In this document: piece after piece, positions 4,441 to 34,951 of the stretch
How the letters are laid out: each line of letters starts with the position of its first letter
Numbering within the stretch: position 1 is the first letter of the stretch
Source: Chitinophagaceae bacterium
GTDB taxonomy: Bacteria; Bacteroidota; Bacteroidia; Chitinophagales; Chitinophagaceae
Reading direction: 5' to 3'
DNA: 47,681 nucleotides
Assembly (NCBI GenBank): GCA_020847395.1
Contig: JADLCD010000055.1
Location: 1 to 47,681 of the forward strand
Program-made: the position numbers and the translations under genes
The notes under the pieces: generated by a model
The model's database searches: none
What the model saw: the letters and a program-made list of their open reading frames with translations, nothing else
What the model was told of the DNA's origin: nothing

Positions 4441-4486
4441 TCCCGATATGCATCGGGATTCTGTCACTCCGTCCGGAGTGACTTCA
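4441..4486. repeat. 46-bp double-hairpin element in the 3' end of C14
   Basis: The element contains TCCCGATATGCATCGGGA (7-bp arms) and GTCACTCCGTCCGGAGTGAC (9-bp arms). It is bounded by a 5-bp direct repeat CTTCA (4436-4440 and 4482-4486). It lies at the K|S junction of the NPVK|SLRTE codons. The second palindrome itself reads S-L-R-T-E-stop, so the protein end is restored. Confidence 0.85.
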
Positions 4487-6917
4487 CCGGGTTTGCAATG
4501 GCCGCTTTTATAGCCTGAAAACTTATGGTTGCTAATGCAATCAACAATGCTAATACTCCTGCAACCAAAAACACCCACCAATTAACATCAATTCTGTAAG
4601 CAAAACTTTGTAACCATTTGTACATGAAATACCAGCTAAGCGGAACCGCAATAACGAATGCTATTGCAACAAGCTTTACAAATTCTTTTGAAAGCATTTG
4701 CACAATGCCGCTTACGCTTGCTCCTAAAACTTTTCTTATGCCGATTTCTTTTGTTCTTTGTTCAGCTATAAATGTTGCCAGGCCGAACAATCCTAAACAT
4801 GCAATGGCAATAGCAAGCACGGAAAATATTAAAGCTATTTTGCCTACACGTTGTTCTGCATCATACATTTCATTAAATGATTCATCCAGGAAGCGATAGC
4901 TGAAAGGCATAGATGGTGCAAGCGCTTTCCATTTGTTTTCTGCTGCGCTTACAATGTTGCTGACATTTGCTGCATTCACTTTAAATAAAACATAATCACT
5001 GCCGTACTTATTAAGCCGTAAACACAATGAGCCAACATTTTGATGAAGCGATTCAAAATTGAAATTCTTTACCACGCCGATAATGTTATATGCAACCGGC
5101 TTATTGTCATCGCCTTCCAGCCTGTAAATTTTTGTATTAAGCAAGTCTTTCCTGTTCAGCGATTTTGCTGCTGCTTCATTCAGAATTATTGCTGAAGAAT
5201 CGCTGGGAAAATCTTTTGAAAAATTTCTGCCCTGAATAATCTGCATACCCATGGTGGGTATGTAATCTTTATCAACCGTCCAGTCCTGCATATCTAAGCC
5301 ATTCTTTGCATCTGCAGTCGGCTCGGCAAAAAAAACATTATCATTACGGCTGGAATTGCTTACCGGCAGGTACGAGCCTGTTGTTGCCGATCGTACACCG
5401 CTGAGGGTTGAAATTTCATTCTTATAAATTTTTGCGTTATCGCCCAGGCTATATGCATCATTAACAATCAATACCTGGTCTTTATTAAAACCAATATCTT
5501 TTGTTTGAATAAAATGCAGTTGCTTATAAATAACAATGGTGCCGATGATTAAAAAGATGGATGTTGCAAATTGAAATACCACCAATACGTTTCTTAGCTG
5601 CCCGCTTTTACTACCTGTTTTGAGTTTGCCTTTCAATACTTCAACAGGTTTGAATGCGGATAAGAAAAATGCAGGGTAGCTACCCGCAATAAACCCTACA
5701 ATAATGGGCAATAAAACGAGTGACAATAAAATTTCCGGAGAAAAAAGATTGCTGAGAAAAATTGTTTTGTTAGCAATGCTGTTAAAAGATGGCAGTATTA
5801 ACCATACAATAATAACAGCGATTAATAACGACAAACATGCTATTAAAACAGATTCACTTAGAAACTGCAGGATGAGTCCTTTTTTGCCGGTTCCAAGCAC
5901 TTTGCGAATGCCTACTTCTTTTGCGCGTTTGGCAGAGCGTGCCGTAGTAAGATTCATAAAGTTGATACAGGCAATTAATAAAATAAACAATGCTACTGCA
6001 CTGAAAATATACACATATTGAATATTACCGCCGGGAGCTAACTCATATTGATAATCTGAATACAGATGAATTTTGGTAAGCGGAATGAGCGAGTACTTTA
6101 TTTTGTTTCCGCCTTTCTTAAAATCATCTATATTGTTTAGATTAATTATCTGCTGAAGATAAGGAAACACGTAGCGGGTAATATAATCATCAAACTTTTT
6201 TTCAAAAGCTTTATAATCTGTTCCTTTTGCCAGCAGCAAATAAGTATGAAAATTATTACTGGCAAATTGTCCCCATTGATAGCCGGCATTCTTCATCGAA
6301 AACAAAAAATCATAATTAAAATGGCTATTCTTTGGCATGTCTTTAATAACTGCTGTTATTGTATATACATCACCATTTCCATCATAATGATATCCCTGTG
6401 TTTGCGTTTCAATGGTTTTGCCGATAACATCTGTTTTGCCGAAATATTTTTTTGCCGCTGATTCAGTAATAACAACAGTGTTAGGTTCATTTAATGCAGT
6501 ATGTGTATTGCCGGCAATAGCAGGAAAAGTAAACACATTAAAAAAGGTAGAATCAACATTAGCAACATTTCCTTCTTTAATAAAGCTGTTGCCTTTCTTA
6601 ATTAGTTTATACCCGCTGTTGCTATAAATACGTGTGTATTGTTCTACCTGCGGATAATCTTTTCTCAATACCTGGCCCATCATATCCGACGTTTCTGCAC
6701 CGTGAAATTCACTGCCGCCAAAACGGATATCTGCATTGATGCGGTAAATACGGTCTGCATTTTTATTAAACCTGTCGTAGCTCAATTCATTCAGTACATA
6801 CAATGTGATAATTAAAAAACAGGCAAGCCCGGTTGCGAGCCCAACAATATTGATGATGGAAAATGTTTTGTTTCGCAAAAGGTTGCGAAGAATAACTTTG
6901 AAATAATTTTTTATCAT
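4464..6917 (-). CDS. FtsX/MacB-type ABC transporter permease, copy C14
   Basis: An 817-residue double permease. TM1 is at about 21-44 after NKTFSIINIVGLATG. The first periplasmic domain runs to about 300 and contains the family marker IHLYSDYQYELAPGGN (283-298). TM2 is at about 303-323 and coupling motif 1 (RAKEVGIRKVLG) at 331-342. Three helices lead to the second half, whose periplasmic domain has the GRNFSKDFPSDSSAIILNEAA segment. Motif 2 (QRTKEIGIRKVLGASVSG) starts near 719, and the final two helices end in NPVKSLRTE. The second half is closest by eye to copy C5 (28592-31015), sharing the MQ-W-VD-Y-P-GRNFS and VVKNFNF segments, which points to a common duplication. The current stop lies inside the inserted element at 4441-4486. 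No ATPase is nearby. Confidence 0.95.
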   Translation of the reverse strand: MIKNYFKVILRNLLRNKTFSIINIVGLATGLACFLIITLYVLNELSYDRFNKNADRIYRINADIRFGGSEFHGAETSDMMGQVLRKDYPQVEQYTRIYSNSGYKLIKKGNSFIKEGNVANVDSTFFNVFTFPAIAGNTHTALNEPNTVVITESAAKKYFGKTDVIGKTIETQTQGYHYDGNGDVYTITAVIKDMPKNSHFNYDFLFSMKNAGYQWGQFASNNFHTYLLLAKGTDYKAFEKKFDDYITRYVFPYLQQIINLNNIDDFKKGGNKIKYSLIPLTKIHLYSDYQYELAPGGNIQYVYIFSAVALFILLIACINFMNLTTARSAKRAKEVGIRKVLGTGKKGLILQFLSESVLIACLSLLIAVIIVWLILPSFNSIANKTIFLSNLFSPEILLSLVLLPIIVGFIAGSYPAFFLSAFKPVEVLKGKLKTGSKSGQLRNVLVVFQFATSIFLIIGTIVIYKQLHFIQTKDIGFNKDQVLIVNDAYSLGDNAKIYKNEISTLSGVRSATTGSYLPVSNSSRNDNVFFAEPTADAKNGLDMQDWTVDKDYIPTMGMQIIQGRNFSKDFPSDSSAIILNEAAAKSLNRKDLLNTKIYRLEGDDNKPVAYNIIGVVKNFNFESLHQNVGSLCLRLNKYGSDYVLFKVNAANVSNIVSAAENKWKALAPSMPFSYRFLDESFNEMYDAEQRVGKIALIFSVLAIAIACLGLFGLATFIAEQRTKEIGIRKVLGASVSGIVQMLSKEFVKLVAIAFVIAVPLSWYFMYKWLQSFAYRIDVNWWVFLVAGVLALLIALATISFQAIKAAIANPVKSLRTE

Positions 6918-6976
6918 AAAGAAATTGTTATATTTTTTGATGGTTAGGAAACGATCATGATTAAACCTATTTGTTT

Positions 6977-6997
6977 CTATTCCGTTCTCAAACTCTT
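6977..6997 (-). pseudogene. Fossil permease tail (KSLRTE, stop) downstream of C13
   Basis: Minus-strand codons for K-S-L-R-T-E followed by TAG lie just past the present stop of copy C13, cut off from it by the 46-bp element. Confidence 0.8.
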
Positions 6998-6999
6998 CA

Positions 7000-7045
7000 T
7001 CCCAATATGCATCGGGATTCCGTCATTCCGTCCGGAGTGACTTCA
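7000..7045. repeat. 46-bp double-hairpin element in the 3' end of C13
   Basis: Same element and same insertion point as at 4441-4486, bounded by CTTCA at 6995-6999 and 7041-7045. It differs by a few substitutions (one mismatch in the first hairpin, one in the second). It supplies the present SLRTE and stop of C13. Confidence 0.85.
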
Positions 7046-9431
7046 CCGGGTTTGCCAACGCCGCTTTTATCGCCTGGAAACTTATCGTTAACAGTGCAAT
7101 CACCAATGCGGCTAAACCCGCAACAACAAATACCCACCACTCTATATTAACCCGGTACGCAAAATTTTCCAACCATTTATTCATTACATACCATGCAACA
7201 GGAACAGCGATGATTGCAGAAACAAAAACAAGTTTTAAAAAGCCGGTTGACAACATGGCTGTAATACCTGATACACTCGCACCCAACACTTTTCTTATCC
7301 CAATTTCTTTTATTCTTTGCTGCACAGTAAATGCGGCTAATCCAAACAATCCTAAGCAAGCGATGATTAACGAAAGTATCGAGAAATACAAAAAGAATTT
7401 GGAAAACCTGCTTTCAGCAATGTATTGGTCATTGAGTTTCTTATCCATAAAACTATATTCGAGCAGGGCGCCGGGAAAAATTTTTTTCCAGTTATCTGCT
7501 ATCCAGCTAACCGCTTTTTGCGGATCATTCATAGCGATACGTACAGATATTTGTGAGAAACGCTGATTAGGAAAATAAGGCATAATCACAAGCGGCTCTA
7601 CCTGCTGATATAATGAATTAAAATGAAAATCTTTTACAACACCAATTACCCGCCCTTCTTTTCCGGTTGCACTAAAAGGTTTATTAATGGCGTCTTCTGC
7701 ATTTTTCCATCCAAATGATTTTACTGCTGCTTCATTAATAATATATGATGCAGAATCTGCAGCAATATTTGGATAAAAGTTTCTGCCTGCAATCATTTTT
7801 ATTCCGTACACATTAATGTAATTCTCATCAGCTTTTAAATTGTATAAGATGGATGTAATGCGATCGCCATTACCCGAAACAGTAGTAACACCACGATTAC
7901 CTAATCCGCCTGCAAGTATTGTATTAGAAGTAGCAATGCCAGTTACAAATGGCTTAGAAAGAACCGCGTTTTTAAATGCCTGATAGTTTTCGATTACATC
8001 TGTATTACCGTTTGTTTTTAAAGTGAGCAAAGCATCTTTTTTGTACCCAAGATCTTTATGCTGTATATAGGATAATTGAGAATTTACTACGAGTATTCCG
8101 GCAATAAGAATAATCGAAATAGTGAATTGCAGCACCACCAGCAATTTGCGTAATCGTGCACCTCCCGATATTGATGTAAGCTTACCTTTTAAAACTTCTG
8201 CCGGCTTATAGGCTGTTATTAATATTGCAGGATATATGCCTGAGAGAATGCCGAGTGTAAATGTTATCGCAAACAATAAAAGCAATAAATTCAGGGAATT
8301 AAATAATAAAAGTTCTTTGCCGCTTAATTCTTTAAACACAGGTTGCAATACCGCAGCAAGCAAGAGTGCGGCTAAGAAAGAAATGAAAGTAACCACTGAT
8401 GCTTCGGCAAGATGCTGAAAGATGAGTTGTATTTTTTGTGCACCCAATACTTTTTTTACGCCTGTTTCTTTTGCACGTTCGGATGCGCGGGCAGTAGCGA
8501 GATTCATGTAGTTAATGCAGGCAATGAGTAAAATAAGAATACCGATGGTGGCAAAAATGTAAATATTTTCCATGCTGCCTGTTGGTGTAATTTCATACCG
8601 CAAATGAGAATTAAGATGTATAGATGTAAGGGGCTGAACTGAAAAATCCAGATGTGTATTTGTCTCCCGCATATATTTTTCTGTATGTCTTTCCGCAAAT
8701 GCAGGCAACCTGGCTTCTATTTTTTTTATGTCTGATTCATTTCTCAATAAAAGGTAAGTGTAAAAATCATTTTTACCCCATTCAGCAGCGGCTTCAGGTG
8801 CATAGGTTTCAAATGTTTTAAATGAAACAAGAAAATTAAAAGTGAAATGTGCATTCTTTGGTGGATCGGGTATTACGCCTGTTATTTTATAAAGAGCACC
8901 TCTGCCGGTACTATCAAACATATAAATAAGAAATGCTTTTCCGATTGGATCCTCGTTTCCAAAATATTTTCTTGCCATTGACTCGGTAACGATAATATCA
9001 TAAGGGTCATTTAATGCGGTTTTGGCATTACCACGTGAAAGATGATAACCGAAAATATCAAAGAAAGATGGGTCAGTCAGTAGAATTCCGTCTTCATCAG
9101 ATTGGTTGTTGCCAAATTTTACAATTGCATTTCTGTTATCTAAACGAACTGTATTTTCTACTTCCGGAAAGTCTGTTTTAAGTGCATTTGCTAAAGGAGG
9201 TCCGGTAACAGCCTGGTAGAATGTTTCGGAAGGTGTGGTGCTTTTTGAAACTACGCGAACAATTCTGTTTGCCTTCGTGTTGAAAGTATCATAACTTAAT
9301 TCATCTTGTATCCATGAAGCAATAAAAATGAAACAAGTGAGCCCTGCCGCAAGTCCTGCTATGTTTAATAAAGTAAAACCCTTATGCTTTGCAAGATTGC
9401 GAAAAGCAAGAAGTGAAAATTTTTTAAACAT
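7023..9431 (-). CDS. FtsX/MacB-type ABC transporter permease, copy C13
   Basis: An 802-residue double permease with the family layout. The N-terminus is MFKKFSLLAFRNLAKHKG with TM1 at about 20-42. The first periplasmic domain ends with IHLNSHLRYEITPTGSMENIY before TM2. Coupling motif 1 is unusual (RAKETGVKKVLGAQK, threonine and lysine substituted), while motif 2 is canonical (QRIKEIGIRKVLGASVSG, near 704). The helix after it reads LSTGFLKLV instead of the usual LSKEFLKLV. The second periplasmic domain carries GRNFYPNIAADSASYIINEAA and VVKDFHFNSL. It starts 43 bp after C12. The stop is provided by the inserted repeat. Substrate unknown. Confidence 0.95.
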   Translation of the reverse strand: MFKKFSLLAFRNLAKHKGFTLLNIAGLAAGLTCFIFIASWIQDELSYDTFNTKANRIVRVVSKSTTPSETFYQAVTGPPLANALKTDFPEVENTVRLDNRNAIVKFGNNQSDEDGILLTDPSFFDIFGYHLSRGNAKTALNDPYDIIVTESMARKYFGNEDPIGKAFLIYMFDSTGRGALYKITGVIPDPPKNAHFTFNFLVSFKTFETYAPEAAAEWGKNDFYTYLLLRNESDIKKIEARLPAFAERHTEKYMRETNTHLDFSVQPLTSIHLNSHLRYEITPTGSMENIYIFATIGILILLIACINYMNLATARASERAKETGVKKVLGAQKIQLIFQHLAEASVVTFISFLAALLLAAVLQPVFKELSGKELLLFNSLNLLLLLFAITFTLGILSGIYPAILITAYKPAEVLKGKLTSISGGARLRKLLVVLQFTISIILIAGILVVNSQLSYIQHKDLGYKKDALLTLKTNGNTDVIENYQAFKNAVLSKPFVTGIATSNTILAGGLGNRGVTTVSGNGDRITSILYNLKADENYINVYGIKMIAGRNFYPNIAADSASYIINEAAVKSFGWKNAEDAINKPFSATGKEGRVIGVVKDFHFNSLYQQVEPLVIMPYFPNQRFSQISVRIAMNDPQKAVSWIADNWKKIFPGALLEYSFMDKKLNDQYIAESRFSKFFLYFSILSLIIACLGLFGLAAFTVQQRIKEIGIRKVLGASVSGITAMLSTGFLKLVFVSAIIAVPVAWYVMNKWLENFAYRVNIEWWVFVVAGLAALVIALLTISFQAIKAALANPVKSLRTE

Positions 9432-9474
9432 AATTTTTCGTTTTACTGATGAACTAATAGTAATTCACTAATTA

Positions 9475-11871
9475 TCATTCTGTTCTTAAACTCTTCACAG
9501 GGTTTGCAATAGCTGTTTTGATAGATTGAAAGCTAATGGTAGCCAATACCAATAATGTTACTATAATTCCTGTTACAAAAAATATCCGGGCATTCACGTT
9601 TATTCTATATGCAAAATCCTGCAACCATGCATGAGCAGCAATCCAGGCAAGCGGAAAACTAATCAGCATAGCTATTATACTTAGTTTAATAAAATCAATG
9701 GAAAGAAGTTTTAGAATAGATGAAACATTTGCACCTAACACTTTTCGTATGCCTATTTCTTTTGCTTTTAATTGTGTGATGTAATAATTCAATCCAATTA
9801 CACCTCCAATGGAAAGGACAATCGCAATTACCGTGAACAAACTTATTATCCATTGCAGGTTCGTTTCAAATGAATATAAATTGGTTGTGAACTGATCAGG
9901 AAAAGAATACACAAAAGGTGATGCCGCATCAAATTGATTCCATTCATTTTTAACAGCATTCAATACCGACTGAAGATTAGCATTTGATTTAAAATTTATA
10001 GTAAGAAACCGGTACCTGTCCGGTGCGCTGAATACTACCAACGGTTCAATCACATAGTGTAATGATTTAAAATGGAAATCCTGCAATACACCTACTATCT
10101 TACCATGTTTATTGCCCTCTCCGCCTTGCATATCCAAACCTATTGCCTGTTGTGGTGATTGCAAACCCAGCGCTTTACAGGCAGCTTCATTAATAATAAA
10201 GTTGCTGCTATCAGTACCAAAGCTTTTTAAAAAATTTCTGCCTGCAACTATCTTCAGCTCATTTGTATTTGCATAATCTTCATCAGCATTTATACGTTGC
10301 CATGTATAATTTGATGGCGCTTCTTTTGACTTGATAATTTCAAAACCTGATTGATATAACGGCGCTCCTATAAGATGAGATGTTGCGCATACCGACTGTA
10401 GAGAACTGTTTTGCAGCAACCGTGCTTTAAACTGCTCTGCATTGTGCTGCGCATTATCTGACAACAAAGGAATATTAATGATATGTTCCCGCTCATAACC
10501 TAAGGATGCCGATTGAAGAAATGCTAATTGCTTATTTAAAATCAAAGTGGCAATAATCAAAAAAGCAGACACGGCAACCTGGAAAACAATAAGCATTTTC
10601 CAAAGGCTCATGCCGCTTTTTATTTTTACAGTTTTCCCTTTAAAAACTTCTACCACTTTTAAGCTTGCCATAAATACAGAAGGATACACAGAACTTAGGC
10701 AAACAATAAATATCACATAAATAAAGCCTACGCAAACAGGTAATAAAATAATGTTATCATCTGCCTGAAAATTGAGTGGTTTAAAAACAGCGAGCATAAA
10801 GAAAACCATTACCAGGCTGATGATAAATGCAATCAACCCATACAATATATTTTCTGCAACAACGAGTGAAAAGATAGATTTCTTTGAACTTCCGAGCACT
10901 TTACGAATGCCTATTTCTTTTGAGCGATGCTCGGCTCTTGCTATACCAAGATTTACAAAATTGATGCACGAAACAATGAGGATTAATATGCCGATGCAGG
11001 AAAGAATATATATATACATGATGTTGGCGTTTTCACCTAATTCATTCATGAGATGCGAATGCAGATGAATGTCTGTAACACGTTGCAGCGAAGCCCGGAA
11101 GCTGTTACCTTGTGGTAAACTTATATGTTCATGAAACTGTTTGTTGATGAAGTTCTCTGTCGCAGAAACATCTTTTAATGAAGCAAGCCTCACATACGAA
11201 TAAAGAAAACTATTGTTCCAGTCGTGCATGATAGGCTCGCCCCAATTATTTTTCAGCGCAGATAAAGAGCATATAAAATCCGCTTTGAAATGCATGTTGC
11301 CGGGCAGGTTCTTAAACACACCTGTTATTTTAAATACAGAATTAAATGTTACGTTGTTTAAGAGCCTGCCAACCGGGTCTTTGTCTCCAAAATATTTTCT
11401 GGCAGTGCTTTCAGAAATAACAACGCTTGATGGTTCGTTCAATGCAGTTACACTATTTCCTTTTATCATCGGAATAGTAAATACTTTAAACACATCTGCA
11501 TCAGCCCAGAGAAAATTTGGTTCAACATAATTGGTGTGGGTTGATTCATTAACAATTACTGCATCTGACCTGTACCTGAATAATCGTGTGGCAGCTTTAA
11601 TTTGTGAAGAGATATTAATCATTGATGGAATAAGCGCCGGTGTTGTTTGCGCATTATCATATACTTCTGTTGATGAGGAAAATTTACCAACTATTCGATA
11701 TAAATTGTTACTGTCTTCATTTGAACGGTCAAAGCTTAGCTGGTAATTTACATACATTATAATTGCAATGAAAGAAGCAATGCCTGTAGAAAGTCCGAGT
11801 ATATTAAAAACACTGATGACTTTGTTCTTTGATGCTATTTTTAGTATAACTCTTAAATAATTTTTCAGCAT
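9475..11871 (-). CDS. FtsX/MacB-type ABC transporter permease, copy C12
   Basis: A 798-residue double permease. TM1 (about 20-42) follows NKVISVFNILGLSTGI. Residues near 290-310 (NIMYIYILSCIGILILIVSCINF) form TM2. Motif 1 is HRSKEIGIRKVLGSSKK. Motif 2 is LKAKEIGIRKVLGANVSS (near 700), lacking the usual Q-R. The helix before it contains IGGVIGLNYYIT rather than the common CLGLFGL, so the last FtsX block is somewhat divergent. The second periplasmic domain contains GRNFLKSFGTDSSNFIINEAA and LQDFHFKSL. The tail is the normal NPVKSLRTE with no repeat insertion. It is the first permease after the ankyrin gene and its orphan tail. Confidence 0.94.
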   Translation of the reverse strand: MLKNYLRVILKIASKNKVISVFNILGLSTGIASFIAIIMYVNYQLSFDRSNEDSNNLYRIVGKFSSSTEVYDNAQTTPALIPSMINISSQIKAATRLFRYRSDAVIVNESTHTNYVEPNFLWADADVFKVFTIPMIKGNSVTALNEPSSVVISESTARKYFGDKDPVGRLLNNVTFNSVFKITGVFKNLPGNMHFKADFICSLSALKNNWGEPIMHDWNNSFLYSYVRLASLKDVSATENFINKQFHEHISLPQGNSFRASLQRVTDIHLHSHLMNELGENANIMYIYILSCIGILILIVSCINFVNLGIARAEHRSKEIGIRKVLGSSKKSIFSLVVAENILYGLIAFIISLVMVFFMLAVFKPLNFQADDNIILLPVCVGFIYVIFIVCLSSVYPSVFMASLKVVEVFKGKTVKIKSGMSLWKMLIVFQVAVSAFLIIATLILNKQLAFLQSASLGYEREHIINIPLLSDNAQHNAEQFKARLLQNSSLQSVCATSHLIGAPLYQSGFEIIKSKEAPSNYTWQRINADEDYANTNELKIVAGRNFLKSFGTDSSNFIINEAACKALGLQSPQQAIGLDMQGGEGNKHGKIVGVLQDFHFKSLHYVIEPLVVFSAPDRYRFLTINFKSNANLQSVLNAVKNEWNQFDAASPFVYSFPDQFTTNLYSFETNLQWIISLFTVIAIVLSIGGVIGLNYYITQLKAKEIGIRKVLGANVSSILKLLSIDFIKLSIIAMLISFPLAWIAAHAWLQDFAYRINVNARIFFVTGIIVTLLVLATISFQSIKTAIANPVKSLRTE

Positions 11872-11918
11872 ACCTATTCATTTTAATTTATGAATATTCA
11901 TTTCACCATTCACTTTCA

Positions 11919-11939
11919 TCATTCCGTTCTTAAACTTTT
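11919..11939 (-). pseudogene. Fossil permease tail (KSLRTE, stop) beside the orphan tail
   Basis: Minus-strand codons for K-S-L-R-T-E and TGA follow the repeat element at 11942-11987. They show that the lost permease here had itself received the element before the rest of the gene disappeared. Confidence 0.75.
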
Positions 11940-11941
11940 CA

Positions 11942-11987
11942 TCCCGATATGCATCGGGATTCCGTCACTCCGTCCGGAGTGACTTCA
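11942..11987. repeat. 46-bp double-hairpin element in an orphan permease tail
   Basis: Identical in layout to the copy at 4441-4486 and differing by about one base. Bounded by TTCA at 11938-11941 and 11984-11987. It lies at the same K|S codon junction, here in a gene of which only the last 17 codons survive. Confidence 0.85.
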
Positions 11988-12018
11988 CCGGGTTTGCCAG
12001 TGCTTTGATGGATTGAAA
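11965..12018 (-). pseudogene. Orphan 3' tail of a lost permease copy
   Basis: On the minus strand the 54 bases read FQSIKALANPVKSLRTE and stop, a perfect permease C-terminus with nothing before it. It begins seven bases beyond the stop of the ankyrin gene. This is the scar of a permease whose body was lost or replaced by the ankyrin gene. Confidence 0.88.
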
Positions 12019-12024
12019 GCAGTT

Positions 12025-13005
12025 CTATTTCGCTCCTGCCTTTCTTAAAATATTTTCAACTTCAATATGCCCTTTCTTCTTTGCCCATATTAATGGCGTT
12101 GACCACGATGCTCCTGATTTATTTATATCTGCACCTTGCTTCAATAAATATTCGACCATTTCTGTATTTCCCCATCTTGTAGCCAAACCCAATGGTGTTG
12201 ACTGATAAGCTTCATCAATAGTATTTATATCTGCACCATATTTTATTAACAACTCAGCTTTGTCAATAAACCCTTTCTGCGCCATATCATGTAAGATAGT
12301 TACACGCTGCCAGCTCATTGTATTTGGGTTCATTCCTTTTTCCATCATGTATGTTGCACCATCTAATCTTTCGAAATAATAGAACTGTGTCCATTTTAGC
12401 AGCGAAGGAACTTGAGCGCCATAGCCCATTAGCAGGTCAATCATTTCATGATTGTTTCGCTTTGCAGGAAATAACAAGATGCCTTCGCTCCAGCAAAACG
12501 TTTCATCTAATGCAAACTCAGGATGATCTTTTAATATCTGTTCAGTTTTATCCAAATCGTTTTTGCTAACTGCTTTTTCAAATTCATTTTGCAATTCAGT
12601 TCTGTTATAAAATATTTCTCCGTTATCTCCTTTGTATTTATGCCTGCTTGTATCTGCAGCATATTCATTCAGCATATTTTCTATTTCAAAATATCCCCGG
12701 TCGTCTGCTACTGTTTGCAGTGTATCTAAAAAAGGATAAAATTTATAACCAGGGTCATGTGCGCCATTATCTAATAAATATTTTACTAATTCAACATGAC
12801 CTTCTCTTACTGCAAAATGAATAGGAGGCGCATAATTGTATTGTGCATAAATCAAATCTATACATTCATTCACCAATGCTTTTACTTTTTGCAGATCACC
12901 GTCATGACTTGCCAATAATATTTCCCAAACTTTAGTTGTGGTTGAAATAGTGCCGTTTCCAACTTGCATAGGCAGGCTTAATTTTAATTCAGGTGGTTGT
13001 ATCAT
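12025..13005 (-). CDS. Ankyrin-repeat protein
   Basis: A 326-residue protein with no signal peptide or membrane helix, so probably cytoplasmic. Ankyrin repeats are visible at about 60-85 (PIHFAVREGHVELVKYLLDNGA), 236-262 (TILHDMAQKGFIDKAELLIKYGADIN), 269-295 (STPLGLATRWGNTEMVEYLLKQGADIN) and 302-326 (STPLIWAKKKGHIEVENILRKAG). Weaker units lie between about 95-115 and 145-225. Ankyrin repeats bind proteins; no partner can be inferred. The ATG at 13005 is 9 bp after the stop of permease C11, exactly where the next permease should begin. The gene ends against an orphan permease tail. It therefore sits in the slot of a former permease. Confidence 0.88.
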   Translation of the reverse strand: MIQPPELKLSLPMQVGNGTISTTTKVWEILLASHDGDLQKVKALVNECIDLIYAQYNYAPPIHFAVREGHVELVKYLLDNGAHDPGYKFYPFLDTLQTVADDRGYFEIENMLNEYAADTSRHKYKGDNGEIFYNRTELQNEFEKAVSKNDLDKTEQILKDHPEFALDETFCWSEGILLFPAKRNNHEMIDLLMGYGAQVPSLLKWTQFYYFERLDGATYMMEKGMNPNTMSWQRVTILHDMAQKGFIDKAELLIKYGADINTIDEAYQSTPLGLATRWGNTEMVEYLLKQGADINKSGASWSTPLIWAKKKGHIEVENILRKAGAK

Positions 13006-13014
13006 ACTTAACTT

Positions 13015-15450: not shown

Positions 15451-15462
15451 AACAGAAATTTG

Positions 15463-15470
15463 TAATTTTG
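15463..15470 (+). promoter_or_regulatory. Possible -7 element for the toxin-antitoxin pair
   Basis: TAATTTTG matches the Bacteroidota -7 element TAnnTTTG exactly and lies 21 bp before the antitoxin ATG (15492). No clear -33 TTTG is found at the usual spacing, so the promoter call rests on this box alone. Confidence 0.4.
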
Positions 15471-15491
15471 GAATGAGCTAAATTTTTTACT

Positions 15492-15722
15492 ATGGAACGC
15501 ATTGTAATCCAGGTGGCCGATGATGTTGCCCAAAAATGGCGCGAAACACCCGAAAAGGTGAAAGAACGTTTGAGTGAACTTTTCGAACAACAAATTGATA
15601 CCGTTGCTCATAAAATACGGGTAATGGAATTTCAGACCTTTCTCGATAAAATCGGCACAGAGGCGCAAGCTAACGGGCTTACCGAAGAAATTCTCCAGGA
15701 ACTGCTGAAAGAAGATGAATAA
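15492..15722 (+). CDS. Putative antitoxin of a PIN-type toxin-antitoxin pair
   Basis: A 76-residue acidic protein beginning MERIVIQVADDVAQKW. This resembles the short strand-helix start of ribbon-helix-helix-like antitoxin leaders, followed by a largely helical body and an acidic end (EEILQELLKEDE). I do not recognise a named DNA-binding fold with certainty. The identification comes from position: it overlaps the downstream PIN-domain gene by 8 bp and is transcribed with it, against the direction of the surrounding permeases. In such pairs the antitoxin binds and blocks the nuclease and represses the operon. Confidence 0.75.
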   Translation: MERIVIQVADDVAQKWRETPEKVKERLSELFEQQIDTVAHKIRVMEFQTFLDKIGTEAQANGLTEEILQELLKEDE

Positions 15723-16119
15723 ATTTATTATTGACACCAATCTTCTTGTGAGCGCATTTTTGTTTCCTGTTTCCGTTCCAAGGCAGACATTTGACAAAGC
15801 AGTACAACAAGGACGGATTGTAGCAAGCACTGACACATTTGATGAATTTGCAGAAGTTTTCAGCAGGCCGGGGTTTGAAAAATATGTACCGGACGAGTCC
15901 CGGCAAAAATTAATCACTGATTTAAAGCAGGTGATAGTTTTCGAAACGGTTTCAGTACAAATTACCGACTGCCGTGCCCCCAAAGACAATAAATTTCTTG
16001 AACTTGCCGTAACTGCCAATGCATCCTGCATCATTACCGGCGATAATGACCTGTTGGTACTCCACCCATATCGGGGAATACCCATTATAAATGCCACAGA
16101 TTTTTTGAATACGTTTTGA
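15715..16119 (+). CDS. PIN-domain ribonuclease toxin (VapC-like, COG1569-type)
   Basis: A 134-residue protein that is a single PIN domain. The acidic metal-binding residues can be seen: D7 in FIIDTN, E44 in STDTFDEFAEVF, D91 in APKDNKFLELA, and D110/D112 in CIITGDNDLL. PIN toxins of this type cleave RNA, often tRNA or mRNA, with Mg or Mn ions. The start codon lies inside the end of the antitoxin gene, so the two are translationally coupled. The pair is the only plus-strand insertion in the 42-kb permease array. Its stop is 12 bp from the fossil tail of permease C10, so it was fitted neatly into an intergenic space. A stabilising role for the array is only a guess. Confidence 0.88.
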   Translation: MNKFIIDTNLLVSAFLFPVSVPRQTFDKAVQQGRIVASTDTFDEFAEVFSRPGFEKYVPDESRQKLITDLKQVIVFETVSVQITDCRAPKDNKFLELAVTANASCIITGDNDLLVLHPYRGIPIINATDFLNTF

Positions 16120-16131
16120 TACATATTTTTC

Positions 16132-16152
16132 TTATTCTGTTCTTAATGATTT
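16132..16152 (-). pseudogene. Fossil permease tail (KSLRTE, stop) downstream of C10
   Basis: Minus-strand codons for K-S-L-R-T-E and TAA lie downstream of the present stop of copy C10, in the same reading frame (57 bp away), separated by the inserted element. Confidence 0.8.
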
Positions 16153-16209
16153 ACCCCGATATACATGCGGGGTCTTCGCATTACTCCGCTATTCGCTTCG
16201 TAATGCTGT
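16153..16209. repeat. 57-bp variant of the double-hairpin element in the 3' end of C10
   Basis: This variant has a first hairpin around CCCCGATATACATGCGGGG and a longer second one with arms GCATTAC and GTAATGC around an AT-richer loop. It occupies the same codon position as the 46-bp copies. It changes the C10 tail from SLRTE to TALRSE, the only array member with this altered end. Confidence 0.75.
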
Positions 16210-18582: not shown

Positions 18583-18616
18583 AATTGTATGTTATAAGTT
18601 TCATTTTCAAGTTGAG

Positions 18617-21021: not shown

Positions 21022-23400
21022 TTATTCGGTTCGTAATGACTTCACCGGGTTTGCTAACGCCGCTTTAATTGCCTGGAAGCTTACCGTTAATAATGTAATT
21101 ACAACAGATGCAACTATCACCAACGCAAACACTCCAACACCAATATTAATTTTGTACTCATACGAGCTTAGCCAGTTATTCATTAAATACCATGCAACAG
21201 GAACAGCGATTGCACAGGCGATTAAAACAAGTACAACAAAATCTTTTGAAAGCAATTGCCAGATATAAGGCACACTGGCGCCTAACACCCTGCGCACACC
21301 AATTTCTTTGGTGCGTTGTTCTGCCATGTAAGAAGCAAGCCCGAATAATCCAAGACATGAAATAAAAATGGCTATAATAGTAATGATGGCAGCGAGATTA
21401 GCCACCAGTTCTTCGTAATTAAATTTCTTAGCATACGCTTCATCTGCAAACTGGAAGTCGAATTGCGAATTATATTTTTCAAAAATTGGTTTAATAGTAT
21501 TAATCGCTTTTGACATGGAAACACTTGAGTTAACCCGAACAATTAAAGCGTTGACCCAGTCGCTCGCAAATCTAATAATCAGGGGTGCAACAGATTGAAA
21601 AGGCGATTGCATTTGCAAATCAGGCACCACGCCAATTACAGTTATGTTTTGCCCATTATGCTTAATTATTTCGCCAACAGGGTTTTTCAGCCGCATGAGT
21701 TTTACAGCAGACTGGTTTAATAAAACTGCAGTGGAGTCAGTTGCATAACCATTGGAGAAATCTCTGCCCGCAATCATTTTTATACCAAATGTTTTTGTGA
21801 AATTATATTCGGTGGCAATCGTATTAATGCCGGTAGTTTTATCTGTTGGTTTACTTCCCTGCCACTCCCATCCGTTTTGACTGCAACAAATGTCAGTTGC
21901 AGAAGAATTAGATTTACATATAGAATATACTGTACCGGTGGCGATCAAATCATTTTGCAATGCATCGAAATTTTTATTCATGTCTGATGAATAATTCACC
22001 GTTAATAAACCGTTTTTATTATAACCAACCGGTCGGTCTTTACCATGCTGTATTTGCTGATAAATAATGATTGTTCCAACCATCAGCACAACGGCACTTG
22101 CAAATTGAATAACGACCAAAATTTTTCTTGGCAATGCACTTCCTCCTCCGGAATTTGATTTGCCTTTCAGCACCTTTACTGGATTGAATGAAGAAAGATA
22201 TAAAGCCGGGTAACTTCCGGCAGTCAGTCCGGTTAATAATATGAATGCAACTATAACAGACCAAAACAATGGGTTAGTAATGAATAAGCTCATGTTTTTA
22301 TCTGTGAGTTTATTAAAATAGGGTAACACAAAAAATACAATGATGAGTGACAGAAGAAATGCAATAACTGCAATAAGGATTGACTCGCTGAAAAATTGTG
22401 CCACCAATTGTTTGCGCAATGAACCAACTACTTTGCGGATGCCGATTTCTTTTGCCCGCTTTGATGAACGTGCTGTGCTTAAATTCATGAAATTGATGCA
22501 TGCAATAAGCAACACAACAAATCCTAATATGCCAAACAACCTTACGTATTTAATATACCCGCCAGCATTTTTTCCATTTTCAAAGTCCGTGTATAATCTC
22601 CATTTTGATATTGGGAATAATTCTATTTGCGGCTTGGCAGCCTGCATGGTTTTATCATCCGGAAAATGATTCAATACAACATCTTTAATTTTCGCATCCA
22701 CATTTCCGGCAGTTGCATTGTCATTCAATTGAACAAATGTTTGCCATGAATTATTGCCCCACTCGTTTTTATGCTTTTTTGTATCCGGATAAATGCTTTC
22801 CTGCAATTGCCAGGGGAGCAAATAATCAAAAGCAATCGAGCTGTTTTTAGGTTGTTTCGCAACTACGGCTTTAACGGTGAGATTGTGTGCATTGTCAAGC
22901 TTTATTATTTTCCCGACTGCATTCGTTGTATTAAAAAGTGTTTTCGCCGTCTCATCTGTCAATACAATTGAATAAGGGTCGTACAGCGGATTTTTATCGC
23001 CGTCGAGTATATCAAGCGAAAACATCTTCACCGCATCTTCACCAATAAAAAAACCAAACTTCGATAGTTTCTTATCTCCGTTTTCCAACAGATGTGTGCC
23101 TCCTCCATCGCACATTGCCGTTGCTTTGATGTCACTGTATTTTGATTTCAATTCATCACCTAACGCAAAAGGAGTAACCCAACTTGTTGATATTTCTCCT
23201 TCGTTTGACTGATGCATGATTACCTGGTACAGCGAATCATAATTTTTAAAATGTTTGTTTGCAGAGAGTTCATCATACATCCATAGCCCTATAAGCATAG
23301 CAACCGCCATGCCCACAGCCAGCCCGGCAATATTGATAGTTGAATACGCTTTGTTTCTTATGATATTACGCCAGGCAGTTTTGAAATAGTTTTTAAACAT
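21022..23400 (-). CDS. FtsX/MacB-type ABC transporter permease, copy C8
   Basis: A 792-residue double permease that groups by eye with C1 and C7. The three share a TM2 entry of the form [DE]-x-G-x-x-x-G-G-x-I-x-Y-V-[RK]-L-F and a WGN segment in the first periplasmic domain. Motif 1 is KRAKEIGIRKVVGSLRK; motif 2 is QRTKEIGVRRVLGASVPY (near 694), with an uncommon RR. The second periplasmic domain contains an adjacent cysteine pair (ATDICCSQNGWEW), rare in the array and possibly disulfide-forming. It also has GRDFSNGYATDSTAVLLNQSA and VVPDLQMQSP in place of VVKDFNF. Normal tail NPVKSLRTE, 11 bp before C9. Confidence 0.94.
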   Translation of the reverse strand: MFKNYFKTAWRNIIRNKAYSTINIAGLAVGMAVAMLIGLWMYDELSANKHFKNYDSLYQVIMHQSNEGEISTSWVTPFALGDELKSKYSDIKATAMCDGGGTHLLENGDKKLSKFGFFIGEDAVKMFSLDILDGDKNPLYDPYSIVLTDETAKTLFNTTNAVGKIIKLDNAHNLTVKAVVAKQPKNSSIAFDYLLPWQLQESIYPDTKKHKNEWGNNSWQTFVQLNDNATAGNVDAKIKDVVLNHFPDDKTMQAAKPQIELFPISKWRLYTDFENGKNAGGYIKYVRLFGILGFVVLLIACINFMNLSTARSSKRAKEIGIRKVVGSLRKQLVAQFFSESILIAVIAFLLSLIIVFFVLPYFNKLTDKNMSLFITNPLFWSVIVAFILLTGLTAGSYPALYLSSFNPVKVLKGKSNSGGGSALPRKILVVIQFASAVVLMVGTIIIYQQIQHGKDRPVGYNKNGLLTVNYSSDMNKNFDALQNDLIATGTVYSICKSNSSATDICCSQNGWEWQGSKPTDKTTGINTIATEYNFTKTFGIKMIAGRDFSNGYATDSTAVLLNQSAVKLMRLKNPVGEIIKHNGQNITVIGVVPDLQMQSPFQSVAPLIIRFASDWVNALIVRVNSSVSMSKAINTIKPIFEKYNSQFDFQFADEAYAKKFNYEELVANLAAIITIIAIFISCLGLFGLASYMAEQRTKEIGVRRVLGASVPYIWQLLSKDFVVLVLIACAIAVPVAWYLMNNWLSSYEYKINIGVGVFALVIVASVVITLLTVSFQAIKAALANPVKSLRTE

Positions 23401-31015: not shown

Positions 31016-31159
31016 GTTAAAATTTGATAATTGTTAGACGACTCAATTGTTTAATGGTTACAGTTGTCTGAAACATCCTTCTGTTTAGGAACACTTATAT
31101 CAATCAGTATCTCCCCTTTTTCCGCAAATCCCTGTTCAGGCTTATTCCGTTCTCAAACC

Positions 31160-31217
31160 CTTCATACCGATATGCATCAGGATTCCATCATTACTCACTC
31201 CGTTCGTAATGACTTCA
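31160..31217. repeat. 53-bp variant of the double-hairpin element in the 3' end of C4
   Basis: The insertion (31165-31217) is bounded by CTTCA at 31160-31164 and 31213-31217. The first hairpin is weakened by substitutions. The second has arms TCATTAC and GTAATGA. It lies at the same K|S codon junction; the present C4 stop (31195) lies inside it. The displaced original KSLRTE-like end remains downstream (about 31143-31163). Confidence 0.8.
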
Positions 31218-33609
31218 CCGGGTTTGTCAATGCTGCTTTTATTGCCTGGAAACTTACTGTAATCAATGCGATCAATAATGCAGCAACGCCTGCCACAACA
31301 AATACCCACCAGCTAATATCAATTCTATAAGCAAAACTTTCAAGCCATTTGTGCATACCCCACCAGGCTACGGGGAAAGCGATGAGTGAAGCAATCAACA
31401 CCAGCTTTAAAAATTCTTTTGAAAGCATTTGGGTAACCTGGCTTACACTCGCACCTAACACTTTTCTTATGCCGATCTCTTTTGTACGTTGTTCTGCCGT
31501 ATACGTAACAAGGCCAAACAAACCAAGGCAGGCAACAAGAATAATAAGCACAGAAAAGATGTTAAGTATAATGCCCGTTTTTTGTTCTGCTGAATACGTT
31601 TTGTTAAAAAGATCATCCATAAAGCTGTAAGCAAATGGTTCGCCCGTGTTGTAAGCATCCCAATTTTTTTTCATAGTTGCCAATAAGCCTGCAACATCAG
31701 TTGTTTTTATTTTAAAGATCAATCCGCTTTCAGGATTCAGCGACATGTACAAAGGGCTAATTGCTTCGCGTAATGATTTAAAATTGAAATTTTTCACTAC
31801 GCCAATTACATGAAAAGGAACATTGGTTCCCCTGTTGCTATTTTGCCTGATTATTGTTTTTCCGACAGCACTCATATCGTTCCAGCCGAATGCATGAGCT
31901 GCTGCTTCATTCAGGATAATGCCTGTAGAATCTGTTGCAAACTCTTTAGAAAAATTTCTGCCGCTAACCATTTTCATACCTAATGTGGGAATATAATTTT
32001 CGTCAACATTATATTCATCGCCATTTACAACTAAATTGTCGTTGCCATGCGGATAAGCCAATGCATTATTATAATTGCTCGGCCCTGCAGGTTTATACCC
32101 GGATATAGTTGCATTTACAATGCGCGGGTCCTGCAGCATTTGTTGTTTATATACCTGCTCTTCTTTGCCCAGCGCATAAGAATTTGGAATAGTAAGCAAT
32201 TGCTCTTTGCTGTATCCAAGATCTTTGTTTTGTATGTATTTCATTTGCTGATATACTATAATAGTTCCGATGATCAACCCAACAGAAATAAAAAATTGAA
32301 ACACTACTAAGCCGCTTCGTAAACCAAAACTTTTATGATTGGCAGTAAGTTTTCCTTTTAATACAGCAATGGGTTTAAAAGATGATAAATAAAATGCAGG
32401 ATAAATACCTGCAACAAGGCCAACAAGTAAGCCCAAACCAATAAAAGAAAGAACAGGTTTTACATCAAAGCTTAAATGTTTTCCCGAAATATTATTGAAT
32501 GCAGGTAATGCCAGTTGCACTAATACAAATGCAATAAGCAATGCAAAAAATGTTATCAATATTGATTCTGATAAAAACTGGCTGATGAGCTGCAATTTTC
32601 CGGAGCCTGCAACTTTTCTTATGCCTACTTCTTTTGCTCTTTTAGAAGCGCCTGCTGTTGATAAATTAATGAAATTTATACAGGCAACAATCAGCATAAA
32701 AATAGCAACGCCGCCAAAAATATAAACATACGTTGCATTGCCACCGGGTTCAAATTCTGTAGTTGTGTTTGAGTTAAGATGAATATCTTTTAATGGCTGT
32801 AATGCAAACCCAAGCGAATTACCTTTTGTTATAAATTGTTCCAGGCTCAAACCCATTGCCTGTTGTATTTGCGGGCCCATATATTTTTTAACCATTGCGG
32901 GAAATCTTGCTTCCATTTTCTTTAAATCGGTACCAGGTTTTAGTAAAAGATAAGTGTGATAACCTCCTCCCAGCCATGTATTTGATTTGGCATCCGCCCA
33001 GCTTGTTAAAGAGCCAAACATATCAAAATGAAAATGCGAATTAGCGGGAATACTTTTAATAATACCCGTTACTTTATACACCCGGTTACTATCTGTATTT
33101 ATCTCAATGATTTTACCTATTGCTTCTTTTTTGCCAAAATATTTTTCTGCGGCTTCCCGGGTAAGCACGATGGCGTCAGGTTGTGTCAAAGCAGTTTTGG
33201 CATCGCCTTCTATCATAGGCAAAGTGAATATGCTTAAAAAGTTTGGGTCAACTAATGCAAACCGGTCATCTTTAAAAACTGTATGGTTATAAATAATTTT
33301 TGGTGTACCAAAGTCTGAGATCCTTGTTGCATCCTGTACTTCGGGAAAATCTTTTTTCATAGTTTGTGCAACAGGCGGCATTGCAACGCTTTCATCTATT
33401 TTGCCACCATTAAGATTTGCATGAAAAACTACTCTTGCAATATTGTCAGCATTTTTATTAAAGCGGTCGTAGCTCATTTCATCCTGCACATACAGCATAA
33501 TGATAAAAAAGGTAGAAATGCCAATAGACAAGCCCAAAATGTTGATGAAAGAAAAAAGTTTATTCTTCCTAATATTACGCCATGCGGTTTTGAAATAATT
33601 TTTAAACAT
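31195..33609 (-). CDS. FtsX/MacB-type ABC transporter permease, copy C4
   Basis: An 804-residue double permease. TM1 follows NKLFSFINILGLSIGISTF. The marker KDIHLNSNTTTEFEPGGNATYVYIF precedes TM2. Motif 1 is KRAKEVGIRKVAGSGKL; motif 2 is QRTKEIGIRKVLGASVSQ (near 706), then LSKEFLKLV. The second periplasmic domain has VDENYIPTLGMKMVSGRNF, KEFATDSTGIILNEAA and VVKNFNFKSL, shared closely with C5 and C14. The C-terminus is ALTNPVKSLRTE, its last residues encoded by the inserted hairpin element. The gene follows the orphan tail and the methyltransferase, so it is the first permease after a break in the series. Confidence 0.95.
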   Translation of the reverse strand: MFKNYFKTAWRNIRKNKLFSFINILGLSIGISTFFIIMLYVQDEMSYDRFNKNADNIARVVFHANLNGGKIDESVAMPPVAQTMKKDFPEVQDATRISDFGTPKIIYNHTVFKDDRFALVDPNFLSIFTLPMIEGDAKTALTQPDAIVLTREAAEKYFGKKEAIGKIIEINTDSNRVYKVTGIIKSIPANSHFHFDMFGSLTSWADAKSNTWLGGGYHTYLLLKPGTDLKKMEARFPAMVKKYMGPQIQQAMGLSLEQFITKGNSLGFALQPLKDIHLNSNTTTEFEPGGNATYVYIFGGVAIFMLIVACINFINLSTAGASKRAKEVGIRKVAGSGKLQLISQFLSESILITFFALLIAFVLVQLALPAFNNISGKHLSFDVKPVLSFIGLGLLVGLVAGIYPAFYLSSFKPIAVLKGKLTANHKSFGLRSGLVVFQFFISVGLIIGTIIVYQQMKYIQNKDLGYSKEQLLTIPNSYALGKEEQVYKQQMLQDPRIVNATISGYKPAGPSNYNNALAYPHGNDNLVVNGDEYNVDENYIPTLGMKMVSGRNFSKEFATDSTGIILNEAAAHAFGWNDMSAVGKTIIRQNSNRGTNVPFHVIGVVKNFNFKSLREAISPLYMSLNPESGLIFKIKTTDVAGLLATMKKNWDAYNTGEPFAYSFMDDLFNKTYSAEQKTGIILNIFSVLIILVACLGLFGLVTYTAEQRTKEIGIRKVLGASVSQVTQMLSKEFLKLVLIASLIAFPVAWWGMHKWLESFAYRIDISWWVFVVAGVAALLIALITVSFQAIKAALTNPVKSLRTE

Positions 33610-34219
33610 AAAAAGATATTATGATTTGTGATTTTTTAATGTCTGATTTGGCATTTTCAAATTGAACTATTTTGTTCTCAAATTCTTCGCAGGGCTTGCA
33701 AATAATGTCGTCATTAAAAGCAAGCTTCTGCCCCTCACACATTGACCATAGCAGACAAACCTTGATAATCAGTAAAGAAATCCTACGGATAGGGTTTACT
33801 AAAAAATATGCCGTATTTATTAGGGTCTGATAATCAATAAAATAAATGAAGCAAACATGCGGAGGTGTTCGGATTTGAACAGTTATTGTACGATAATGTA
33901 CATCAACCATTCCGATGAAATAGAACATAATGCAGCTCCTCGCAAAAAACTGCTAAGTGAGTTTGTTATTTAATCCAAATTGTTTAAAGCAGCAATCGCT
34001 CCAGCCAAAGATGAGTATTTCAAATCAGGTAGTTTGTCACCCAACAGCGGTGATTTAAAACCTTGCAGTCATTATTCCAAAAACAGCAGGTGTAGATGAG
34101 TTTAAATTTTCAAGCAGTTTAAAAATTTCATCCCGTTGTAATATGTCGGGAAATTGTGCAATATTTTAAATTCAGAACAATATTAACAACGCAGCTCCCT
34201 TCAGGCTTGCAACAAAACT
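33610..34219. other. 610-bp gene-poor spacer with an orphan permease tail and decayed sequence
   Basis: Only the orphan tail at 33667-33702 is recognisable. The rest has short frames with many stops on both strands. Minus-strand bases 33856-33905 vaguely resemble a tRNA 3' end but do not fold. Plus-strand bases near 34076-34125 give a short readable piece (AVIIPKTAGVDEFKFSS) with no continuing frame. I see no functional gene. Confidence 0.6.
33667..33702 (-). pseudogene. Orphan 3' tail of a second lost permease copy
   Basis: The minus strand reads FASPAKNLRTK and stop, which matches the family end (FANPVKSLRTE-like) at most bases. No permease sequence precedes it. It lies about 520 bp after the stop of the methyltransferase gene. 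It is older than the tail at 11965 because several codons have changed. Confidence 0.75.
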
Positions 34220-34804
34220 TTACATGTTATTTTTTACAGCGATTATAATTCCTGATGACCAGTTTTGTTTTGTTAATAACAGGTCTTTTCTTGCTTCCAA
34301 ATCAGCAATTAATTTTTCAACCTTTTTCTCGTGTCCGTCTGGCCAATTTAATTGCGGTAACATATCATCAATTATATAAAGGCCACCTCTATTAAGCATA
34401 GATAATGTTTCATCTAAAAGAAGGTATTTTCCATGCCATGTATCAGCAAAAATGTAATCAAATTTTTCATTCTTGTTTTTAGTTATCCACGCTTCTCCGT
34501 CTGTTTGTATGAACGTTGCTCTTTTATCAACCGCTAAATACCTTTTGGCTACACTTAGAGATCTGTTGTCATTATCTATTGAAATTAATGTAGAGCTTTC
34601 ATCCATTCCGTCAAGTATCCATGATGTAGCAAGTCCTGTGCCTGTACCAAGTTCAAGAAATTTACCTGATGGTTTAGAGGCTGCCAACACTCTAAGCAGC
34701 GCACAGGCAGGCAGCTCAGATGCCATTGTAAAACCTGATGCTTTCGTCTCTTTGTCAATATCTGTATATGCTTCAGGTAGTGTTTGATTTATTTCTTCTT
34801 TCAT
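34220..34804 (-). CDS. Class I SAM-dependent methyltransferase (O-methyltransferase-like)
   Basis: A 194-residue cytoplasmic protein with the Rossmann methyltransferase pattern: motif I FLELGTGTGLATS (49-61), the acidic residue after strand 2 (ISIDND, D77), a TDGEAW turn (101-106), and FDYIFADTWHGKY (115-127) with D121 at the end of strand 4. IIDDML (144-149) follows. These resemble small O-methyltransferases of the catechol O-methyltransferase type, which use a metal-bound acidic pair; the substrate cannot be told. The start ATG at 34804 is 124 bp after permease C3. The gene is unrelated to the transporters and is followed by an orphan permease tail, so it too may occupy the place of a lost copy. 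Confidence 0.85.
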   Translation of the reverse strand: MKEEINQTLPEAYTDIDKETKASGFTMASELPACALLRVLAASKPSGKFLELGTGTGLATSWILDGMDESSTLISIDNDNRSLSVAKRYLAVDKRATFIQTDGEAWITKNKNEKFDYIFADTWHGKYLLLDETLSMLNRGGLYIIDDMLPQLNWPDGHEKKVEKLIADLEARKDLLLTKQNWSSGIIIAVKNNM

Positions 34805-34905
34805 TCAAAAAAATTTAATCATTCTGATTTATTGATATCTGAGTTTTATTATTCACGATTGACTATTCAACATTCGAGCTCTTCATTCCGTTCTTAAACT
34901 CTTCA

Positions 34906-34951
34906 CCCCGATATTCATCGGGATTCCGTTACTCCGTGCGGAGTGATTTCA
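34906..34951. repeat. 46-bp double-hairpin element in the 3' end of C3
   Basis: Bounded by TTCA at 34902-34905 and 34948-34951. Contains CCCGAT/ATCGGG and ACTCCG/CGGAGT arms. Same codon position as the other copies. The present C3 stop at 34929 lies within it, and the fossil KSLRTE-like codons remain at about 34884-34904. Confidence 0.85.

Follow-up and report, generated by a model that had tools for sequence, protein, structure and literature searches.

Recurrent insertion of short double-hairpin elements that re-encode the C-terminal codons of ADOP/FtsX-type permeases in Chitinophagaceae

INTRODUCTION

How can a short DNA element enter the last codons of a gene repeatedly and leave the encoded protein end intact? 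The question is raised by contig JADLCD010000055.1 of a Chitinophagaceae bacterium (assembly GCA_020847395.1, 5.17 Mb), whose 47,681 nucleotides, referred to here as the window, contain six double-hairpin inserts at the 3′-ends of permease genes. Each insert supplies a new set of C-terminal codons to the sequence it interrupts. A preliminary description of this DNA suggested that the element targets the site, that it was copied between paralogous genes, or that the only survivors are insertions which restore the tail. The results presented here show that the insertion is recurrent, independent of gene descent and gene-end restoring, and that it was precise in the one orthologue pair in which both flanks can be read.

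RESULTS

Six inserts in the window re-encode the permease tail

All six inserts were verified in the sequence, on the minus strand and at the places first given for them (sizes in window order 46, 46, 46, 57–58, 53 and 46 bp). Every one re-encodes S/A-L-R-T/S-E-stop, and downstream of every one the original KSLRTE-type tail persists as a fossil, as had been noted, with slight decay, M having replaced T at 4441 and G having replaced S at 31165. Class A elements of 46 bp were found at 4441..4486, 7000..7045 and 34906..34951, supplying SLRTE-stop (4464–4481, 7023–7040 and 34929–34946, respectively) to the permease genes 4464–6917, 7023–9431 and 34929–37337; the corresponding fossils, all on the minus strand like those below, lie at 4418..4440 (TGAAGAGTTTGAGAATGGAGTGA), 6977..6999 and 34883..34905. 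A class A variant of 53 bp, with hairpin 1 of the form TCATTAC...GTAATGA, occupies 31165..31217 and supplies SLRTE-stop (31195–31212) to the permease 31195–33609 (fossil, 31142..31164). The element at 16153..16209 (57–58 bp) belongs to a second class, B, and supplies ALRSE-stop (16189–16206) to the permease 16189–18582, with its fossil, AAATCATTAAGAACAGAATAA, at 16132..16152; in this respect the copy departs from the SLRTE-stop palindrome first described. The last class A element, 46 bp at 11942..11987 (fossil, 11919..11941), is found beyond the 3′-end of an ankyrin-repeat gene (12025–13005), in what remains of a permease tail (12 codons, FQSIKALANPVK), so that of the six permease ends originally counted five belong to intact genes. 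The hosts are ADOP/MacB-like permeases of ∼800 residues with FtsX and MacB_PCD domains above the Pfam cut-offs; ADOP is their best NCBIfam match, although below its cut-off.

Two further arrangements were noticed among these genes. In window 11965–13005 the ankyrin-repeat gene stands between an intact permease tail and the 12-codon remnant, which would suggest either loss of a permease or insertion of the gene at this place, and a broken permease remnant with its own tail, NPVKALRTE-stop, lies at 3279–4332 between two intact permeases.

Over all copies the element measures 46–67 bp and is composed of a 4-base foot, hairpin 1, a linker of 4–5 bases and hairpin 2. The junction on the coding strand is best given as AACCCGGT^GAAG, i.e. 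between GGT and GAAG, a permease tail being AACCCGGTGAAGAGTTTGAGAACGGAATGA. Followed along the coding (minus) strand, class A has the sequence AACCCGGT / GAAG TCACTCCGGACGGAGTGA CGGA ATCCCGATGCATATCGGGAT / GAAG AGTTTGAGAACGGAATGA; the restored codons S-L-R-T-E-stop overlap hairpin 1, and hairpin 2 lies downstream of the stop codon. Class B, as seen at 16153, reads CACA GCATTACGAAGCGAATAGCGGAGTAATGC GAAG ACCCCGCATGTATATCGGGGT and encodes A-L-R-S-E-stop, its hairpin 1 being GCATTACG...GTAATGC. The ends of class A are ambiguous over TGAAG, and the CTTCA or TTCA repeats reported on both sides of the inserts are these ambiguous ends of the AACCCGGT^GAAG junction; the description does not extend to the class B copy at 16153, whose insertion added four bases belonging to the element and which lacks a direct repeat. 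Class B would fit an element with hairpins near both ends that inserts beside a fixed short site without target duplication. The foot sequences seen included GAAG, CGCA, CAAA and GGAG; none was GTAG. A third hairpin, class C (AGCCTTCGCACCGAATAGCTACGGCTCTCAAAGAG), has no sequence kinship to A or B, yet it also reads S-L-R-T-E-stop and sits near the same spot. It occurs five times in 12 genomes of the genus, always in permease tails, although its fold is weak (z −1.5) and its right edge ill-defined.

When the inserts were folded and compared with 200 shuffles each, the two-hairpin fold was beyond chance in five of the six, clearly so at 4441, 11942 and 16153 (z −4.4, −4.4 and −4.0) and to a lesser degree at 34906 and 7000 (z −2.4 and −2.0); the fold at 31165 (z −1.0, equalled by 32 of the 200 shuffles) was not so by itself. 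Hairpin 2 has changed in a compensatory manner, U-A taking the place of C-G at two pairs (11 cells); this supports a kept hairpin and no more, the shuffles used being of a kind that does not remove relatedness. No known Rfam family was matched in the window.

The tail itself can take the form of a hairpin. The reverse complement of ACG GAG TGA (T-E-stop) is TCA CTC CGT (S-L-R); the two halves are mutually complementary, so a perfect DNA palindrome can encode the entire SLRTE-stop tail, which is why insertion has little cost for the protein. Self-complementarity over the 18 bases was 73% in the class A tails of the genus versus 37% in non-carriers, the best of which reached 89%. Since palindromic tails without an insert exist, a palindrome does not by itself equal an insert; in the window, an uninserted and partly palindromic tail, TCATTACGAACCGAATAA, lies at 21022..21039 (minus strand). 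The possibility that the element's tail is a plain duplicate of the fossil tail was ruled out because the codon sets differ (for serine, for example, TCA versus AGT), and for the same reason both tails look shaped as coding sequence.

Whole copies are found in permease tails

A covariance model built from the six window copies was used to search the whole genome, scoring 150 of 594 first-look candidates. At E ≤ 0.01 it returned ten places, all of them permease tails. Besides the six window copies, these comprised a tandem pair sharing a single tail on contig 75, one copy in decay (contig 47) and an uninserted palindromic tail (C47:83155). There are hence three further inserts beyond the window, all in permease tails. 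Complete pattern scans of the same genome, allowing up to two mismatches, found hairpin 1 at five places and hairpin 2 at six, again all tails. A dispersed whole element was rejected since these scans, and the model search over the candidates it scored, place every whole copy in a permease tail; hairpin 2 on its own does occur elsewhere.

For class A, 58 genomes (including that of the window) were searched with 97 candidates scored per genome. Outside the window's own genome, 22 matches were obtained at E ≤ 0.01, of which 17 were tails; an insert was present in 16 of these and absent from the 17th, a palindromic tail (G006 C108:10318). The five matches away from tails were weak (E 2.6e-4 to 4.4e-3), and one of them, on contig C82 of G006, is hairpin 2 alone. 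The class B model was run against 294 genomes of the family (again including the window's own) and matched seven of them, with 18 candidates scored per genome, so that absence from the others is unproven. All 16 matches outside the own genome were tails, distributed over the genus and three other genera, and those in genome G076 have a hairpin 2 of different sequence (ACCACGTCTTTAGCGTGGT). Genus mates and the three other genera carry their inserts at the identical junction, AACCCGGT^GAAG. The exact class B hairpin, sought among 84,980 named species, was matched 12 times within 11 stretches, and all 12 matches lay at permease tails, the records being from Terrimonas, Agriterribacter, Parafilimonas and metagenome-assembled genomes of Chitinophagaceae. 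In the permease arrays fetched for comparison, 31 of 32 matches at E ≤ 0.001 were tails and the 32nd was a second tandem copy on a tail. Viral contigs contained no match to two exact patterns. Both covariance models and the exact class B pattern include tail codons and so favour restoring copies, and the collection of tails required an intact tail; the suggestion that only tail-restoring insertions survived is compatible with these results, although copies that do not restore the tail could have escaped.

Hairpin 2 also has a distribution of its own. Over eleven genomes it was found alone at 37 places, most of which were inspected: seven tails, nine anticodon arms of tRNAs or tRNA-like sequences, three D-loops and 18 others. 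At L165 (G007), L166 (G006) and L168 (G002), double hairpins sharing hairpin 2 (ATCCCGATGAACGAAGTGATATCGGGAT or a near form) and having a 5′ hairpin GTTTTTC...GAAAAAC occupy the D-loop of a tRNA copy that is damaged and directly precedes an intact tRNA (Met, Phe and Asn). These cases are interpreted as relatedness of hairpin 2 and do not prove movement. Tandem tRNA-like repeats of 90–93 bp (GGGGGTTTAGCTCAGCTGGCTAGAGCGTCCCGATGGAAATCGGGA...) were also seen at L146 (G003) and L151 (G006), near tRNA-Ala in G006; ARAGORN does not call them as tRNA.

Inserts do not follow gene descent

Genomes of the genus contain up to at least 33 matches to the permease C-terminal query among the matches listed, and two genus mates have none. 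The carrier counts given here cover the fetched arrays, which comprise part of the permease matches listed for these genomes. The arrays yielded 210 tail-pattern matches, at least two of them not permeases, and 193 on long open frames, nine of whose class labels were assigned by hand. A FastTree gene tree was built from 190 of the 193, three rows of ≤400 residues (one a class B carrier) having been dropped. An insert is carried by 35 of the 190 permeases in the tree (8 A, 21 B, 5 C and 1 of a type E described below), and these require 33 changes of state; 200 label shuffles gave a mean of 32.6 and a minimum of 28, and shuffles within genomes an average of 32.2. Because the changes match those of shuffled labels, the insert does not follow gene descent. 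Nor were carriers clustered within arrays (P = 0.15 to 0.87 at four distances). The proposal that the element targets a sequence finds support in that every confident whole copy observed lies at the junction, and AACCCGGT is preferred by carriers (26 of 30, versus 69 of 124; P = 0.0015).

Orthologues with and without an insert were also compared directly. A permease of genome G004 (L094) carries a 62-bp insert that is lacking in its orthologue in G002 (L085); the 308 bases upstream are 94% identical, 193 of 241 columns match downstream, and the L094 fossil is the orthologue's own tail, i.e. the insertion was precise. The orthologues G004 L093 and G005 L100 carry different classes (A and B, respectively). 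The 53-bp insert at 31165 appears as a clean gap over the tail against G005 L101, although not against G007 L104, and its downstream flanks are unmatched. Tree and orthologue pairs contradict the spread of a single insertion by duplication and argue for many separate gains rather than one insertion copied by gene duplication. Segmental duplication was rejected on these two grounds and on the element comparison that follows.

Element sequences were compared for 27 of the 30 A and B carriers, with three G076 elements entered by hand; G002_L085_10860 (mixed), G007_L108_2964 (end unplaceable) and G004_L093_979 (not in the tree) were omitted. Similarity between elements of the same class averaged 0.83 within a genome (31 pairs) and 0.75 between genomes (168 pairs), a difference reached by two of 2000 permutations, and was unrelated to gene distance. 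The upstream flanks contained no long converted stretch; among five windows, that from −40 to 0 gave P = 0.026 and the others 0.06 to 0.15. Thus the suggestion of copying between paralogues retains the likeness of copies within a genome, with no sign of segmental duplication or long-tract conversion.

Variant tails and neighbouring repeats

Two G003 permeases (L088 ∼10780–10870 and L089 ∼3960–4080) show an arrangement termed type E, in which the tail is followed by a dispersed repetitive extragenic palindromic (REP) sequence, GTCATTGCGATNCGCCGCGGCGGAGAAGCAA, with 13 copies in G004, and then by a second, mostly synonymous and differently coded tail, KAA[VI]ANP[VI][EQ]SLRTE-stop. In L102 (7785–7826) and L108 (2913–2957), tails with hairpin 1 and no clear hairpin 2 or fossil were observed, which may be either remnants or precursors of the element. 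Another dispersed repeat (CCTCACCCCCGGCCCCTCTCC plus a hairpin; window 40162–40182, and many tails in L083–L111) begins a few bases at most from the stop codons of many permeases. It follows the stop in 48 of the 193 tails, and in the own genome it occurs at 11 places on 10 contigs (≤3 mismatches).

Candidate enzymes in the genome

The genome has five Y1_Tnp matches, two of them parts of one stretch, and two open reading frames above the cut-off of NCBIfam NF047646 (REP-associated transposase). A search for a transposase of this RAYT type, which the preliminary description had advised, was therefore successful as regards the genes; none of them has a copy of the element beside it. The Y1 loci contained only single motif words of 6–7 bases (ATCGGG in L007–L009, ATTGCGA in L006).

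DISCUSSION

Recurrent tail-restoring insertion at these permease genes is well supported, and it is unusual. As to its agent, we consider the chances about evenly balanced that it is a small non-autonomous insertion element at GGT/GAAG in the 3′-ends of ADOP/FtsX-type permeases. The inserts lie between GGT and GAAG in the conserved gene end, where the 5′ arm of hairpin 1 doubles as the (S/A)LR(T/S)E-stop codons, completing a new gene end and turning the old one into a fossil. The element might be mobilised in trans in the form of a folded single strand, and the enzyme responsible may be an HUH (Y1) protein similar to those of RAYT and IS200 systems. Insertions that fail to restore the tail would presumably be lost, and the stock of up to ∼30 homologous tails in array genomes may allow the element to persist.

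Several known systems invite comparison. Integrative elements at tRNA and similar sites restore the end of their target gene; they are kilobases long and encode an integrase. The permease inserts share with them a gene end brought in and an old end left as a fossil, and differ in measuring 46–67 bp. REP sequences of the GTAG and CGTC families are short hairpins with a 4-base foot, to which the two hairpins and varied feet of the permease element bear some likeness; they are common at gene 3′-ends, where GTAG REP ends often supply the stop codon (PMC3733652). The window's genome has RAYT genes. However, REPs are dispersed and mostly intergenic, whereas whole copies of the permease element were found only in the encoded last codons of one family, with no GTAG foot and no copy beside a RAYT gene. 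RAYT subclass 2.6 is described as mainly from Bacteroidetes and as having atypical hairpins (PMC6006769). The same source gives the guide rule of the IS200/IS605 elements: a 4-base guide stands at the foot of their hairpins, and they insert beside a fixed short site. The permease element and its class B, which lacks a target duplication, may resemble the ends of these elements and their small relatives; in contrast, the permease element has no internal transposase and its site appears longer than four bases. Rickettsia palindromic elements are also palindromic inserts within protein-coding genes, but at ∼150 bp they add a peptide to unrelated genes (PMC10969869), and the permease element restores the end of one family. 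In the literature searched, which mostly left subscription journals uncovered, no description was found of an element that is restricted to one gene family's tails and also codes for them.

Several observations weigh against a mobile element. IS200/IS605 elements use four-base targets (PMC6006769) and would for that reason be expected to scatter; no whole copy was found outside permease tails, even though CCGGT occurs 111 times in the window. No A, B or C hairpin was present beside the Y1 genes of the own genome (loci L006–L010), although CGTC-type REPs are reported without association to transposase genes (PMC3733652), so that a missing neighbour is compatible with mobilisation in trans. Of seven orthologue pairs, a single one is clean at both edges; in the others, what follows the tail is too divergent or too simple for the right edge to be placed. 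The left edge was fixed at GGT by the script, and the right flank is GAAG in 10 of 25 cases and a near form in most others. Candidates scored numbered 150 of 594 in the own genome, and 97 and 18 per genome elsewhere, and no movement of the element was observed. Finally, carriers resemble each other slightly more over the final 40 bases upstream (P = 0.026), and a serine codon of the AGY type is present in 14 of 18 classifiable fossils (of 24) compared with 48 of 120 tails (P = 0.004; six fossils and four tails were unclassifiable). Both features are also expected from homology-guided copying, for which exclusivity to paralogues is the strongest point.

Spread guided by homology deserves to be taken seriously, though we think it somewhat less probable than not to be the right account. 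A cassette of tail and hairpins would have originated on a few occasions when repeats of the hairpin type inserted next to the stop codon of a permease, and would have travelled by ectopic gene conversion or template switching between paralogous tails with ∼20 shared bases on each side. This would explain why whole copies are confined to one gene family, the carriers' preference for AACCCGGT, the AGY-type fossils and the faint similarity over −40 bp. Mixed or shortened forms also fit (G002 L085:10860, the tandem copy of contig 75 and the tails with hairpin 1 only), as do the two G003 permeases in which a dispersed repeat precedes a second, differently coded tail. In two of seven pairs (G004 L096 and G003 L087) the first fossil codon differs from that of the orthologue, as if the right arm had been copied along. 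On the other hand, no long converted stretch is present upstream, the 62-bp insertion left both flanks orthologue-like, carriers are unclustered, and elements of the same class are up to 97% alike in genes more than three substitutions per site apart. The data are consistent both with a mover that has a long target and with copying for which short homology serves as the guide; a mover was preferred because the flanks of the clean pair are untouched and gene distance is irrelevant.

It is improbable that selection for RNA hairpins, protecting mRNA 3′-ends or terminating transcription, produced these structures with no mobile element involved. The hairpins do overlap or follow the stop codon and show compensatory changes, palindromic tails such as C47:83155 exist without an insert, and another hairpin repeat follows the stop in 48 of 193 tails; exact insertion together with a fossil tail would nonetheless be unexplained. 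The intrinsic-terminator pattern was absent at the four elements within window 1–20000, and an intrinsic terminator was rejected on that basis. A single ancient insertion, inherited through gene duplication and repeatedly lost, has very little in its favour: the site is common to all copies and a class A copy would revert to the empty form if the stretch between its TGAAG repeats were deleted, but carrier state is random on the gene tree, close orthologues differ in both presence and class, elements are alike within a genome regardless of gene, and class B has no direct repeat for such a deletion.

The permease tails provide a natural, repeated case in which an element's own hairpin holds the codons its target is missing. 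Since a genome may have as many as ∼30 homologous sites and sister species are numerous, the gains are countable, which makes the movement of REP-like hairpins without a dedicated transposase testable; differences among the ends of these permease genes can stem from inserts and not from point changes. Tentatively, and with rather more doubt than confidence, the inserts might represent a new selfish-DNA lifestyle, that of a minimal element homing to one junction of a multigene family and hidden there as its target's C-terminal codons. If so, the same target would have been reached convergently by A/B and by C, a minimum of two hairpin lineages with no relation to each other, aided by the palindrome that SLRTE-stop allows.

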